The notes beneath the pieces were generated by a model, which did not search any database, had not been told where the DNA came from, and saw only the letters and a list, made by a program, of their open reading frames with translations. Positions 4,756 to 15,610 of a stretch of 64,000 nucleotides of DNA are shown one piece after another. Numbering within the stretch: position 1 is the stretch's first letter; each line of letters starts with the position of its first letter. The position numbers and the translations under genes are program-made. Origin of the DNA: Bradymonas sediminis (lineage in GTDB: Bacteria > Myxococcota_A > Bradymonadia > Bradymonadales > Bradymonadaceae); NCBI RefSeq assembly GCF_003258315.1, contig NZ_CP030032.1, forward strand, positions 2,457,804-2,521,803, in the 5' to 3' direction.

Positions 4756-6027
4756 TTAATCGCGCAGATCTTTGCGGCGACTCAGAATTCTTTGCTTCTT
4801 TCGCGACCATCGCTTCTCCGAGCGTCGCGCGAGGCGCTCCTCTCGGTTGAGCTCCCATTCATCGGGCGCGTTCTTCGAGATATTGAGCAGTATCCCAATC
4901 GAGCATAGCGACAGGATCATTGAGCTACCGCCGAAGCTCACGAACGGGAGCGTCAGACCCTTGTTGGGCAGAAGCCCCGTGACAACGCAGAGGTTCGCGG
5001 TGGCCTGAATGCCGATAAGCGAGGTCAGCCCGAACGCCAGGTAGCGGCCAAAGTCATCGGTCGCCCGAAAGGCGATCAGCGTTCCGCGCCAGACGATGAC
5101 GATGAAGAGCGAGACCAGGAAGATCATGCCGAGCAGTCCGAGCTCCTCGGCGATGATGGTGGCGATAAAGTCACTCCACAGCTCCGGCACATACCCCAGG
5201 TTTCCGGTGCCGTTTCCGAGCCCGCGCCCGGTAAACCCACCCGAGCCAATCGAGATAAGCGACTCACTGATCTGGTAGCCGATGCCGCTGCGATATTCGA
5301 AGGGGTCGAGGAAGGCCATCACGCGTTTCATACGGTATTCGCGGCTCGTGATCGCGAAATACGCCAGCACTGCGCCGGTGACGGCGAATCCGCCGAGGTA
5401 GATAATCCGCGCCCCGCTGACGAAGAGCAGAAGCCCCATCATAAGCATCAGGATGACGGACGTTCCGAAGTCGGGCTGCAACATCAACAGCCCGACCAGC
5501 AGGCCGATGACCACGATATGGGGGACAAACGCCACGCTGAATTTCTTCATCGTGCCGATCTTTTTATTCAGGGAGTAGGACAAGAAGATGAGCGACACGA
5601 CCTTGGCGACCTCGCCGGGCTGGAAGCTCGCCCCGCCGATACTAAACCAGCGCTGGGCGCCGTTCTGGATCTTGCCGATGCCGGGGATGAGGACCAGGAC
5701 GAGCATCAAAATCGTGATGCCGAGGATTGGGTAGACGAGGCGTTGGTACCAGCGGTAGTCCACGCGAAGCGCGACAAAAAGTCCAACGACGCCCACGCCC
5801 ACCTTTTGGGCCTGGCTGAGGACCAAAAACATCGGGTCGCCGAATTTCTCAGCAGACATCACGGCGCTGGCCGAATAGAGCATCACCAGGCCAAAGCCCA
5901 CCAGGGCCAGGACCGCGGCGAGCAGCCAGCTATCCCAGGGCTGTGCGTCGGGGTCGCCGAAGCGATCGCCCGATGTATCCCCCGAAAATTGCCCGGCGAG
6001 GGTGCTAAGTCGATCCGTGGTGCTCAT
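4756..6027 (-). CDS. ftsW: Lipid II polymerase / division protein FtsW
   Basis: FtsW is the SEDS-family glycosyltransferase that polymerises septal lipid II with its partner FtsI. The 423-residue protein has about ten membrane segments, the QPDFGTS motif with the catalytic Asp region, LPFVSFGGSS near the C-terminus, and a basic cytoplasmic tail. The N-terminal 30 residues are hydrophilic. The ATG has GGAGG upstream, held in a hairpin loop (6030-6045). murD, normally just upstream, is absent: only 112 bases separate it from mraY. Confidence 0.95.
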   Translation of the reverse strand: MSTTDRLSTLAGQFSGDTSGDRFGDPDAQPWDSWLLAAVLALVGFGLVMLYSASAVMSAEKFGDPMFLVLSQAQKVGVGVVGLFVALRVDYRWYQRLVYPILGITILMLVLVLIPGIGKIQNGAQRWFSIGGASFQPGEVAKVVSLIFLSYSLNKKIGTMKKFSVAFVPHIVVIGLLVGLLMLQPDFGTSVILMLMMGLLLFVSGARIIYLGGFAVTGAVLAYFAITSREYRMKRVMAFLDPFEYRSGIGYQISESLISIGSGGFTGRGLGNGTGNLGYVPELWSDFIATIIAEELGLLGMIFLVSLFIVIVWRGTLIAFRATDDFGRYLAFGLTSLIGIQATANLCVVTGLLPNKGLTLPFVSFGGSSMILSLCSIGILLNISKNAPDEWELNREERLARRSEKRWSRKKQRILSRRKDLRD

Positions 6028-7451: not shown

Positions 7452-10400
7452 CTATTTCTCGCCTGTTGCGACAACGAGGTCAATCACCCTTTCGAGCCGT
7501 GCTCCGCGACTGGCTTTGAGCAAAATACGCGTCAGCCCCCGCTGGTCAACGATATATTTCAACCAGGGACCGACCGCCTCGACATCCTCAAAGGCCGCCA
7601 CTTCGAGCGTGCGCACCTTTGATGCCGCCTCGGCCATCTGTTGGGCAAATTCACCGACGCAAACCAACGCGTCGACCTGCGCAAACTCGGCGACCTTGGC
7701 CGCGACTTCGCAGTGCAATCTCGCCGCCTCCGCGCCTAATTCCCGCATCTCGCCGAGAATCACAACACGCGGCGACGGCTCCTCGGTCGCCGACGAGACA
7801 AATGCCTGAACCGAGGCGATGGTGCTCGACGGATTCGCGTTATAGGCGTCGTCGATAAAATAGTAATCGCCCTGCTCCACGATTCGCCAACGCCCCGCGG
7901 GAAGCGCGAGTTTCGCAAGTGCGCCGTTGAGCGCGGGCGCGTCGATAGCCTCTCCGGCCGCGATAAGCGTGGCGATCGCGGTGGCGGCGTTGAGCGCATG
8001 ATGCGTTCCGGGAATCGGCAGGTGCAGCGTGTATTCTTGGCCGGCGTGCGCCATCGTAAACCCGAGCGCGCCGCGGGCGTCGGCACCGTCGAGGAGTTCG
8101 ACCCGAAGATCAGCGCCCGCTTCGAAGCCGACGGTGAAGCATCGTCCCGCAAAGTCCGGCCCGACGAGATTCGAGCTTTCCGAAAACGGCAAGATGGCCG
8201 CGGTGTCGGCGCTCGGATTTTCAAAGATCTCGGACTTCGCGCGCCGGATTCCATCCAATGAGCCGAAGCCCTCGATATGGGCCAGGCCGATCGAGGTCAC
8301 GACGCGCGCCTCGCCCGGGGCGAGCGCTAGCAATTGGGAGATCTCACCGGGGCCGTTAGCGCCCATCTCGAGGATCAGGCGCTCGCAATCCGCCGGAATC
8401 GCACACAAAACAAGGGGCACACCGATATGATTATTGAGGTTGCCGGGCGTCGCGAAGACCCGGGCGCGCGCGCCCCAAAGGAGCGCGAGCATCTCTTTGA
8501 CGGTGGTCTTCCCGTTTGACCCGGTGACGTTAATCGTGCGCATGCCGGCGTCGCGTGCTTCGTTCCAGATCGCGTGTCCCAGCCGGCTCATGCCAGCGAG
8601 GGTGTCCTCGACGACGACGAGCGGCAATTGAGTGTCGAGGGCGTCGACGCGGTCGACCAGAATCGCGATCGCCCCGCCCTGGTCTGCGCGCCCCAGAAAA
8701 TCATGGGCGTCGAAATTCTCGCCACGAAGCGCCACGAATAATTCGCCCGCCTCAAGCGTGCGCGTGTCGCTGCTCACCCCGACGGGGCAAAGCGCGGCGA
8801 CGCTCTCAGGCGCGGGCGCGTCTTCGATATGGTCGAGACAAAGTCGCCCGCCGATGGCCTCCGCGATCTTCGCGAGCGACCAGGATGCGATGCGCTTCGG
8901 AGCATTCTGACCGACCTGCTCTTGCGGCAGCGCCTTCGCATCCAGCGCCGCCCGAGCGAATTCGACATCGTCAAATGGGATGCGTTCGCCGTCTCGCTCC
9001 TGATAATTTTCGTGGCCTTTGCCGGCGATAAGGACGGCATCATTCGGCCCGGCCAGGTCGATCGCCTTTTTGATCGCGCGCGCGCGGTCAACTTCGACGC
9101 ACACCCCAACTCGGTCGGCGACGACCTCGTCGACGCCGACCAAGATCTCGTCGATAATCGCCTCTGGCGACTCGTTTCGTGGGTTATCGGTGGTGATAAT
9201 CGCGACATCGGCGCCCTCGACGCCGACGCGTCCCATGGGCCCACGCTTCTGGCGGTCGCGGTCGCCGCCGCAGCCGAAGACCACGACCACTCGACCATCG
9301 GTGAGCGGGCGCACGGTCTCAAGCGCGCGCAAAAGCGCGTCGGGGGTGTGGGCGTAATCGACGAAGACCGCCGGCTGGGCCGCGCGGGCGTCCGCCGAGG
9401 TCGCCTCGACCCGCTGCATGCGCCCGGGCACGGCCTCGAGCTCGGCGAGCGTCGCCTGAATCTGGGCCTGGGACACACCGGCGCTTCGCGCAGCGATGAT
9501 CGCGGCGAGCATATTCGACACGTTGAATTCGCCCATCAATTTGCTGCGGATGCGGAAGGATTCATCCGGCGCGCGCACCAAAAAGCGGGTCCCGTGCAGC
9601 GTTTGTTCGACCTCGGTGGCGCGCCAATCCGCCTTCGACGACTGCCCGTAGGTGAAGGTCTTCACCTGGGCGGCGCGAGCCTGTTCTGCGAACCAATCGC
9701 CGGCGGGGTCGTCAAGGTTAATAATCGCGACCGGGTCTTTGCCGGCCTTCTTCGAGGCGGGTAATAACCTATTGAAGAGCCGCCCCTTCGCCTCGCGGTA
9801 GGTGTCCATATCACCATGAAAATCAAGGTGATCCTGGGTGAAATTGCTAAAGACGGCGGCGTCAAAATGGGTGCCACCGAGGCGGTAGGTGGCGAGCCCG
9901 TGGCTGGAGACTTCCATGGCTACGCGCTCGACGCCGTCGCGGCGCATATCGGCCAGCACGCGCTGAATGACGAGGCTCTCGGGCGTCGTATTCTTGGCGA
10001 CTTCGCGATGCGCCCCCCAGCGATATTCGATGGTGCCGAGCAGTCCGCTGGGCGCGCTTTTTTGTGCGGATGCATCAGCGGACTGCGGGTCTTCGGCCGA
10101 GAATAACGCGTCGAGGATCCAGCTAATCGTGGTCTTTCCATTGGTGCCCGTGACGCCTGCCAAATAGAGGTCGTCGGCCGGGTGGCCGAAGAACGCCGCG
10201 CTCAGCGGGCCGAGCGCCTGGCGGGTGTGCTCCGCGACCAAAAGTGGGCAGTCCAAGCGACCTTCGAAGTCGGCGGCGCGTGCGCGGTCGACCAGAATCG
10301 CGGCCGCCCCGGCCGCCTGGGCGCCCTCGATAAAATCATGCCCGTCCATCGCCGCGCCGTGCAACGCGACGAAGAGCGTGCCGGGCTCGACTCGACGCGA

Positions 10401-10499
10401 GTCGAAGGTGATCGCGTCGATCTCAACCGCCGACGCGTCCGACGTCGCCGCGTGGAGTGAGATGCCGTCGGCCTGAGCTAGTAATTTTGCTAATTTCAT
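7452..10499 (-). CDS. murE-murF: MurE-MurF fusion: mDAP ligase and D-Ala-D-Ala ligase in one chain
   Basis: This 1015-residue protein joins two successive Mur ligases. The N-terminal half is MurE: substrate domain to about residue 110, P-loop GVTGTNGKTT at about 115-124, EVSSHG, and DNPRNE near residue 440, the motif that selects meso-diaminopimelate. After a linker near residue 530 comes MurF: substrate domain, P-loop TGSNGKTT near 660, LEMGANGPGEI, HALNAATAIA and DDAYNANPSS. All catalytic motifs look intact in both halves and no stop or start separates them. Such fusions are known in some other bacteria, for example Bordetella. A GTG directly precedes the ATG chosen here. Confidence 0.95.
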   Translation of the reverse strand: MKLAKLLAQADGISLHAATSDASAVEIDAITFDSRRVEPGTLFVALHGAAMDGHDFIEGAQAAGAAAILVDRARAADFEGRLDCPLLVAEHTRQALGPLSAAFFGHPADDLYLAGVTGTNGKTTISWILDALFSAEDPQSADASAQKSAPSGLLGTIEYRWGAHREVAKNTTPESLVIQRVLADMRRDGVERVAMEVSSHGLATYRLGGTHFDAAVFSNFTQDHLDFHGDMDTYREAKGRLFNRLLPASKKAGKDPVAIINLDDPAGDWFAEQARAAQVKTFTYGQSSKADWRATEVEQTLHGTRFLVRAPDESFRIRSKLMGEFNVSNMLAAIIAARSAGVSQAQIQATLAELEAVPGRMQRVEATSADARAAQPAVFVDYAHTPDALLRALETVRPLTDGRVVVVFGCGGDRDRQKRGPMGRVGVEGADVAIITTDNPRNESPEAIIDEILVGVDEVVADRVGVCVEVDRARAIKKAIDLAGPNDAVLIAGKGHENYQERDGERIPFDDVEFARAALDAKALPQEQVGQNAPKRIASWSLAKIAEAIGGRLCLDHIEDAPAPESVAALCPVGVSSDTRTLEAGELFVALRGENFDAHDFLGRADQGGAIAILVDRVDALDTQLPLVVVEDTLAGMSRLGHAIWNEARDAGMRTINVTGSNGKTTVKEMLALLWGARARVFATPGNLNNHIGVPLVLCAIPADCERLILEMGANGPGEISQLLALAPGEARVVTSIGLAHIEGFGSLDGIRRAKSEIFENPSADTAAILPFSESSNLVGPDFAGRCFTVGFEAGADLRVELLDGADARGALGFTMAHAGQEYTLHLPIPGTHHALNAATAIATLIAAGEAIDAPALNGALAKLALPAGRWRIVEQGDYYFIDDAYNANPSSTIASVQAFVSSATEEPSPRVVILGEMRELGAEAARLHCEVAAKVAEFAQVDALVCVGEFAQQMAEAASKVRTLEVAAFEDVEAVGPWLKYIVDQRGLTRILLKASRGARLERVIDLVVATGEK

Positions 10500-10572
10500 C
10501 ACGTCTCGAGATTCTCAGGTCTTGCTGACTCGCTCAAAAATCAAACCAGCGCTTGAACTTGTATCGACTCGC

Positions 10573-14210: not shown

Positions 14211-14470
14211 GACCCATCCTTGGGTCGATTCCGAGGCATTTCGAGACTGCGCAAAAGAAGTAAAGTGGCCCATCCTTGGGCCAGCGCGCTCGGAGTCGGG
14301 TCAAACCAGCGCCGGCTGCAAGCCGACCTAAACAACCCGGTCAAAACACGCGCTTCAATCCTTGAAGACTTCTTTCGGCGACTCATCCTTGAGTCTAACC
14401 CGGATGCCCCGGGTTAATGCTGCGCGGCGGCTCGGTGAAGAAATGCAGCGCAGCGTTCTCATCCTTAAGA
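14211..14470 (-). promoter_or_regulatory. Cluster of five AAGGAT-loop hairpins between mraZ and rsmH
   Basis: Reading the mRNA strand, five hairpins show the same loop and different stems: 14457-14470 TCTT[AAGGAT]GAGA (weak, one G-U); 14380-14395 GACTC[AAGGAT]GAGTC; 14353-14367 CTTC[AAGGATT]GAAG; 14266-14283 TGGCCC[AAGGAT]GGGCCA; 14211-14226 GACCC[AAGGAT]GGGTC. Stems change in a compensating way while the loop stays fixed, which points to selection on an RNA structure with a loop-reading partner. No gene or terminator is seen in this gap. CsrA/RsmA is the best known match. Confidence 0.65.
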
Positions 14471-15065: not shown

Positions 15066-15108
15066 GCACGCCGGGACCTCTCGACCCATTTGGCGCTATG
15101 GGAATTTG

Positions 15109-15151
15109 TCCCACTGCGGCCCACTATAGGGGCACCGATACCCACCGTCAA
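15109..15151 (-). promoter_or_regulatory. Sigma70-type promoter of the dcw cluster with overlapping MraZ-type boxes
   Basis: On the minus strand TTGACG (15151-15146) and TATAGT (15128-15123) are separated by exactly 17 bases, predicting a start near 15116. Boxes TGGGC (15123-15119) and TGGGA (15113-15109) are 10 bp apart and overlap the -10 and start site; a TGGGT (15144-15140) lies in the spacer. Repeats of TGGGN with 5-base gaps are the described MraZ operator in Escherichia coli, so autoregulation is likely. Confidence 0.7.
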
Positions 15152-15326
15152 CAACTTCACACCCATTCTGGGCCCAGCGCCGCCGAATCGAGCGGGAATT
15201 TGATCCACCGATCCAACACCCCTCCGAGCATCCCCTTAAATTTCAACAACTTAGAAAACCACCACCCTAAAAATCGCGCCGAAAATTAATTTCTAAACCA
15301 TTTTCTAGGGCGGTACACACCTGCCC

Positions 15327-15538
15327 TGGGAGTGTATTGGGGGGCAGTGGAGCGCAGTGGGATGGCGGTGGGGATGAAGTGGGATCAGGGTGGGATCGCG
15401 GTGGGATCATCCCCCAACACACGACCAAACGCAGGTGGGGATAAAGTGGGTTCGGTGGGAATTCGCCCCAAAATGCCGGCCGAAACGGGGCCTGGGACGA
15501 AGTGGGAAAGAAGCGGGGATGAAGTGGGATCGGCGGGA
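15327..15538 (+). repeat. Helically phased array of about 15 TGGGA-type boxes upstream of mraZ
   Basis: TGGG(A/G) or near-variants start at 15327, 15338, 15348, 15358, 15369, 15380, 15391, 15402; 15436, 15447, 15456; and 15493, 15503, 15514, 15525, 15534 on the plus strand. Steps are mostly 10-11 bp, one DNA turn, in three clusters of 8, 3 and 5. Typical context is GTGGGAT. It lies 175 bp or more upstream of the mraZ -35 and is oriented opposite to mraZ. The boxes match the MraZ half-site; binding is inferred. Confidence 0.7.
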
Positions 15539-15556
15539 GCATCTCCCAGCGTCCAT

Positions 15557-15610
15557 AAAAAAACGCAGGCGCCACACCCTAATAAAAATCGGGGATGACG
15601 CCTGCGTTTT
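15557..15610 (-). terminator. Intrinsic terminator after the small gene at 15641-15853
   Basis: Arms AAAACGCAGGCG (15560-15571) and CGCCTGCGTTTT (15599-15610) form a 12-bp stem around a 27-base loop. On the minus strand the stem is followed by seven T residues. It separates the upstream small gene from the TGGGA array and the mraZ promoter. Confidence 0.7.

Follow-up and report, generated by a model that had tools for sequence, protein, structure and literature searches.

The window (the whole stretch of DNA that was analysed, 64,000 nucleotides of Bradymonas sediminis) carries on its minus strand genes of the dcw operon, in which mraZ and rsmH (mraW) are separated by about 340 nt, measured between the stop of mraZ (14519) and the probable GTG of rsmH (14178). 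Both genes were assigned from their open reading frames with NCBIfam models, and the rsmH start was picked by eye from a protein alignment. Five hairpins presenting an AAGGAT loop, four solid and one weak, occupy positions 14470 to 14211 of the minus strand within this gap (Table 1). A first-pass annotation of the DNA had described both a gap of this size and five hairpins sharing one loop; the former agreed with the gene boundaries and each of the latter could be placed letter by letter, H1 having the weak stem. Many relatives possess a stronger counterpart of H1, of the form GCTC-ANGGAN-GAGC, and H5 is an extra copy, near relatives having no hairpin at its place. A helix of 10 pairs enclosing H3 and H4, here called P0, was absent from that annotation. 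Folding of the gap RNA gave z = -3.76, with none of 100 shuffled sequences equally stable, and the predicted fold contained the hairpins as well as P0. The probable rsmH start lies about 32 nt beyond the end of the array, and the rsmH ribosome site is outside it.

Two further hairpins, U1 and U2, likewise missed by the first-pass annotation, lie between a probable promoter and mraZ. A promoter-like site comparable to the one in the window was present at all 18 mraZ loci examined. A covariance model of the two leader hairpins (R2; alignment A5, made without L012 and L014) had no strong match elsewhere in the genome of B. sediminis, a single contig of 5,045,683 bases. In the window sequence, a consensus scan indicated a weak terminator-like site at 14991-14978, directly ahead of the mraZ ATG. 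Small reading frames were considered by eye both in the mraZ-rsmH gap and in the mraZ leader and were rejected, the leader candidate differing among the species compared. Separately, numerous GTGGG/GTGGGAT repeats, which we take to resemble MraZ boxes, were observed at 15100-15560 of the window and upstream of mraZ at two other loci (L003, L004), some of them spaced by 10 nt near the promoter. A GTCARRATGA sequence common to many relatives is located between U1 and U2 (15045-15028).

Table 1. Genes, candidate control elements and hairpins of the dcw region, in window positions (loops in square brackets)
Feature	Position	Strand	Sequence or remark
Probable mraZ operon promoter	15151-15123	-	TTGACG, 17 nt, TATAGT; consensus scan
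U1, leader hairpin	15065-15046	-	TGAAGCC[AAGGAT]GGCTTCA; covaries, 18 sequences
U2, leader hairpin	15027-15012	-	GATGC[AAGGAA]GCATC; covaries
mraZ	14977-14519	-	Open reading frame; TIGR00242, 131 bits (cut-off 98)
H1	14470-14457	-	TCTT[AAGGAT]GAGA; weak stem of 4 pairs, one G-U
H2	14395-14380	-	GACTC[AAGGAT]GAGTC
P0, 5' strand	14377-14368	-	Pairs with 14261-14252
H3	14367-14353	-	CTTC[AAGGATT]GAAG; heptaloop
H4	14283-14266	-	TGGCCC[AAGGAT]GGGCCA
P0, 3' strand	14261-14252	-	Pairs with 14377-14368
H5	14226-14211	-	GACCC[AAGGAT]GGGTC
rsmH (mraW)	14178-13213	-	Open reading frame, probable GTG start; TIGR00006, 299 bits
Distal mraY-ftsW hairpin	6100-6071	-	AAGGAT loop
ftsW hairpin	6045-6030	-	TGGCC[ACGGAG]GGCCA; loop and 3' arm hold the ftsW ribosome site, ATG at 6027
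ddl-ftsQ hairpin	2022-2005	-	ACGCTC[AAGGAT]GAGCGT; E 0.003 with model R1, ranking second genome-wide

Background frequencies were estimated from 20 stretches of this genome, each 20 kb long and evenly spaced, read on both strands (800 kb of strand). This sample contained 45 ANGGA hairpins with a stem of at least 5 pairs, or 0.056 per kb, and nowhere three of them within 300 nt. Occurrences of the ANGGA motif fell in a hairpin at a rate of 27 per 1000 motifs, compared with 18 to 36 for 11 control loops, showing no excess. The strict form C-ANGGAN-G, closed by at least 4 pairs, occurred 7 times. At these densities, four ANGGA hairpins (stem of at least 5) in 349 nt have a Poisson probability of about 6e-9, and three C-ANGGAN-G hexaloops in the same length one of about 5e-9, or about 1e-4 once all windows of the genome are counted.

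The gene mraZ was found in 18 of the 26 genomes of the order, Lujinxingia vulgaris being among the relatives whose loci were compared. Most of the 18 mraZ loci displayed the same order of hairpins, GCTC-ANGGAN-GAGC, GACTC-ANGGAN-GAGTC, CTTC-ANGGAN-GAAG and GCCC-ANGGAN-GGGC, with local changes, and all four letters occurred at the second loop base. In an alignment of 15 gap sequences with a mean identity of 31%, invariant columns were mostly the GGA of the loops and stem positions; the gap alignments (A2, A4) were made without two loci with short gaps (L014, L015) and one from another family (L019). A covariance model of H2 to H4 (R1), for which 15 of the 18 mraZ loci were used, matched 17 of the 21 genomes of the family with E <1e-7 and none of the 36 other genomes of the class. 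Across 282 genomes of the phylum, the same 17 were recovered and nothing else rose above noise. Fifteen of these 17 matches exist by construction, because the loci concerned built the model, and the independent finds are those in genomes G004 and G007. Looser arrays, for instance the one in G040, escape the model, and its negative results outside the family are therefore weak. One further match (E 9.6e-4) fell inside a reading frame of G050, and those with E between 1e-3 and 0.1 were mostly chance-like or single sites, the exceptions lying in the leader of mraZ in G008, in the gap between ddl and ftsQ, and in G020 and G032, where hairpins were paired. The first-pass annotation had held that lack of hairpin conservation would count against its proposal; in this respect the hairpins proved to be conserved.

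The array was thin or missing in the remaining four genomes of the family: one hairpin was found in G001 and two in G005, none in the 1500 nt upstream of rsmH in G002, and neither mraZ nor rsmH was found in G006. A direct scan upstream of rsmH covered 30 loci (35 genomes have rsmH), three of them with less than 400 nt of upstream sequence. Looser sets of hairpins were found ahead of rsmH in three other genomes of the order (G021, G022, G025), and none in 24 genomes of families f3, f4, f6 and f7, except for one hairpin each in G031 and G055. In G040, a genome of the class that belongs neither to this family nor to the order, a mraZ-rsmH gap of 524 nt contains three ANGGA hairpins with differing stems; this set may be either an independent gain or an old inheritance.

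Compensatory changes were assessed by shuffling. In the alignment of the leader pair U1-U2 (18 sequences), 92.5% of cells were paired, both sides had changed in 34 cells against 9.7 in shuffled alignments, and the covariation score was 0.582 against 0.166, a result reached in none of 500 shuffles. For P0, a run of 5 to 10 pairs was found between the same two places at all 15 loci, with a shuffle p <0.05 at 11 of them. Its two strands paired better within species than when swapped between species (17.9 versus 13.5; 0 of 5000 permutations, 13 species), two near copies of L013 (L011, L012) having been set aside. Covariation of the H2 to H4 stems was not significant, since these stems vary too little: 20 to 104 of 500 shuffles reached the observed values. 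Alignment-based folding likewise yielded no firm covariation for the stems of H1 to H4.

The observation extends past the mraZ-rsmH gap to the leader, to ftsW, to the ddl-ftsQ gap and to the leader of a methyltransferase gene. In the dcw operon stretches of 12 genomes, two of which end early at contig ends, ANGGA hairpins numbered 102 on the sense strand and 6 on the antisense strand. They recurred in the mraZ leader and in the mraZ-rsmH, mraY-ftsW and ddl-ftsQ gaps, not at every place in every genome; with stems of at least 5 pairs, they were present in 6 of 12 mraY-ftsW gaps and 7 of 10 ddl-ftsQ gaps. When loop cores of the pattern xNxxx, 256 in all, were compared in the operon gaps (46 gaps, 6,679 bases), ANGGA ranked first, with 71 hairpins for 126 motif occurrences in the sense orientation and 0 for 12 in the antisense one; the cores ranked next were apparently shifted readings of the same hairpins. 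The geometry of a CsrA site, a C-ANGGAN-G hexaloop, was found in 65 of the 71. Inspection by eye revealed ANGGAGGGC, whose loop doubles as ribosome site, before ftsW in all 12 operons, with a second hairpin upstream (stem of at least 5) in five of them, namely the window and loci L059 to L062. In these five, a site on the ribosome site is accompanied by an upstream hairpin, a layout that resembles glgC and is not found at rsmH. Elsewhere in the operon, positions 7452-10502 of the window form a single reading frame of 1016 aa resembling a MurE-MurF fusion, with a match of similar length in the other operons as well.

A search of the whole genome for two close copies of CANGGANG returned 20 matches; with the pattern reversed there were 3. 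Those with stems include the dcw leader, the leaders at 353426 and 1721670 and that of the methyltransferase, most others being stemless. At 353426-353466 (G000:C1, locus L183) and 1721670-1721708 (L188), paired ANGGA sites adjoin the start codon. The methyltransferase is an orphan DNA adenine methyltransferase (gene 3457280-3458077, locus L198, G000:C1:3457280-3458188), for which the nearest NCBIfam model is CcrM, at 236 bits and thus far under the cut-off of 830. Its leader in B. sediminis has three to four ANGGA hairpins, one of them at the start codon. The gene was present in 21 of the 26 genomes of the order, and the 260 nt upstream of these 21 loci held 31 sense hairpins versus 1 antisense. 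GGCC-ANGGAT-GGCC was found in most members of the family, and many loci carried GAC-ANGGAN-GTC beside the ATG; no hairpins were found in the 260 nt upstream of the gene in G007 and G022. A tandem 24-nt repeat containing CAGGGACG, stemless, was also observed at G000:C1:2699791-2699894.

A single CsrA (87 bits) is encoded by the genome of B. sediminis. It aligns with CsrA of solved structure over 55 residues, including R44, and its translation holds L4 and R44, which we take to be the RNA-binding residues of CsrA. The protein was found in 24 of the 26 genomes of the order and in all 13 good assemblies. In the class outside the order, it was found in 22 of 31 genomes and in none of the six of family f3. 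Families f4, f6 and f7 have CsrA and lack the array, so that the presence of CsrA alone does not predict the array. The antagonist FliW was not found in the genome of B. sediminis by a search that was positive in the B. subtilis and T. maritima controls. Separately, a locus of G033 (L116, positions 1501-1640) displays ACCC-ACGGAT-GGGT four times within about 125 nt; CsrA was not found in that genome.

Structures and SELEX data of CsrA/RsmE revealed the same loop and closing pair as in C-ANGGAN-G (PMC7652899). The first-pass annotation had related the hairpins to CsrA; loop sequence, hexaloop geometry, conservation and the presence of a CsrA gene all support CsrA-type sites, and on these sequence features CsrA would be expected to bind them. 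It is probable, though far from certain, that CsrA controls the mRNA for division and cell wall genes in cis at several junctions. The polycistronic dcw mRNA would start ahead of mraZ with a leader holding two putative CsrA sites. The mraZ-rsmH gap would offer four to five more in a defined fold, H1 and H2 followed by P0 around H3 and H4. One or two could be available in each of the mraY-ftsW and ddl-ftsQ gaps; in the former, the loop of one hairpin contains the ribosome site of ftsW. Neighbouring hairpins may be bridged by CsrA dimers. The spacing of H2 and H3 is 24 to 31 nt at all 15 loci, and this falls within the range over which a CsrA dimer can bridge two sites on one RNA. At ftsW, bound CsrA might block ribosomes as it does on glgC, where an upstream hairpin tethers the protein and a second site lies over the ribosome site (PMC7652899). 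At the leader and in the mraZ-rsmH gap, where no evident ribosome site is covered, CsrA could act on mRNA turnover, processing or elongation. Such modes are exemplified by flhDC, which CsrA protects from RNase E, and by pgaA, where it acts through Rho (PMC7652899); cis control of the operon, acting at more than one junction, is therefore favoured. The expected net effect of free CsrA would be a coordinated damping of division and wall genes. A repression leader for rsmH had also been proposed in the first-pass annotation. In the narrow sense this idea is weak, as about 32 nt separate the array from the start and the ribosome site is left uncovered, and it holds better as one part of an operon-wide control.

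The density of sites can also be read as that of a CsrB/RsmZ-like sponge, in which the segment 14500-14180 would be cut from the mRNA, or transcribed apart from it, as a stable RNA titrating CsrA. Four to five hexaloop hairpins in 260 nt together with an enclosing helix, the distance of the array from the rsmH ribosome site and the failure to find FliW in the genome would suit such an RNA. Precedents exist in the flaA mRNA, which acts as a CsrA sponge (PMC4894983), in the UpsM sRNA arising from a dcw leader (PMC5089854) and in stable RNA fragments derived from the coding parts of the E. coli dcw genes (PMC6156199). However, consensus scans gave no promoter in the gap, the only promoter-like site being upstream of mraZ, and no conserved terminator, the sole terminator-like site being H4 with its T-rich tail, after which relatives have other letters. 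Rfam scans detected no sponge family at gathering score (RsmV reached 13.1 bits for a cut-off of 100). Like hairpins also occur in other gaps of the operon, and on ribosome sites both there and in other genes, a distribution that fits cis control better. On these grounds a separate sponge sRNA, one of the two roles that the first-pass annotation had suggested for the array, was abandoned as first choice and is considered unlikely. A related proposal, that in Bradymonadales the dcw mRNA itself is the main CsrA sink and that its amount sets free CsrA, is conceivable if doubtful. If true, other targets of CsrA, for example the CcrM-like DNA methyltransferase, would be released when the division genes are transcribed, and RNA would thereby link cell division with wall synthesis and DNA methylation.

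Alternatively, the array may be an element of mRNA processing or stability, or bind another GGA-loop protein, with CsrA not being the partner. A conserved RNA structure would be expected in this case too, as conservation alone names no protein, and some families have CsrA without the array; yet 65 of the 71 gap hairpins have the loop and closing pair of a CsrA site, and CsrA is never missing in good assemblies of the order (24 of 26 genomes overall), which makes a different partner quite unlikely. A reading of the repeats as sites on the DNA, or as terminators, instead of as RNA sites is very improbable. They are short palindromes, and H4 together with its T-rich tail receives a terminator-like score, but the copies share their loop and vary in their stem letters, whereas the arms of a DNA palindrome site would be conserved, and the hairpins are confined to or concentrated on the sense strand (71 versus 0 in the gaps, 102 versus 6 over the 12 operons). 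The strand bias in the gaps led to rejection of a DNA palindrome, and the T tail not being kept in relatives to rejection of H4 as a terminator. Least credible of all is a chance clustering of hairpins: lone ANGGA hairpins do arise, at 0.056 per kb of strand, but the Poisson probability of about 6e-9 speaks against it, and this reading is already refuted because the array is conserved, being kept in 17 of the 21 genomes of the family.

CsrA has mainly been tied to metabolism, motility, virulence and biofilm formation. If CsrA control in cis is true, the conserved CsrA-type sites along the dcw operon and ahead of an orphan methyltransferase would allow division to be controlled directly at the post-transcriptional level in a group of predatory bacteria. 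The prediction is sharp: it names particular loops and one protein, type strains are in culture, and RNA-seq of B. sediminis has been published. The RNA-seq covers strain FA350 in pure culture and co-culture, and CsrA is not mentioned in the available part of that report (PMC7460792). In Vibrio cholerae, CsrA affects cell shape through AspA (PMC8989286). The portions available of the open-licence literature, which cannot prove absence, contain no report of CsrA acting on dcw mRNA by direct sites; likewise, those on CsrA together with intercistronic sites, CcrM, Myxococcota or Bradymonadales report no such sites, and none of six dcw or division terms occurs in the main text of an E. coli CsrA study (PMC5694010).

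Several known systems share features with the present one. The mraW RNA motif (RF01746) of Actinomycetales is likewise named for rsmH (mraW); it comes from a different lineage, and its covariance model had no match in our Rfam scans. In CsrB/CsrC and RsmX/Y/Z, too, a short length of RNA bears several hairpins with GGA hexaloops. CsrB carries about 18-22 CsrA sites, whereas the present array has fewer, lies inside an operon, shows neither a promoter of its own nor a conserved terminator and has no Rfam match. UpsM of Rhodobacter sphaeroides is, similarly, an RNA regulator located where the dcw operon begins. It lies ahead of mraZ and has a Rho-independent terminator (PMC5089854), in contrast to the array described here, which follows mraZ, presents GGA loops and has no conserved terminator. 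In Campylobacter jejuni, the flaA mRNA is both a CsrA target and a sponge (PMC4894983), and GGA hexaloops within an mRNA that is possibly target and sink are common to both cases; the operon is a different one, and FliW, the main antagonist in C. jejuni, was not found here. Leaders of the glgC type combine an upstream hexaloop GGA hairpin with a site on the ribosome site, and the mraY-ftsW gap and the methyltransferase leader have a comparable layout. Unlike in these leaders, the sites are distributed over several junctions of one essential operon, in Bradymonadales, and the mraZ-rsmH part leaves ribosome sites uncovered and has an enclosing helix.
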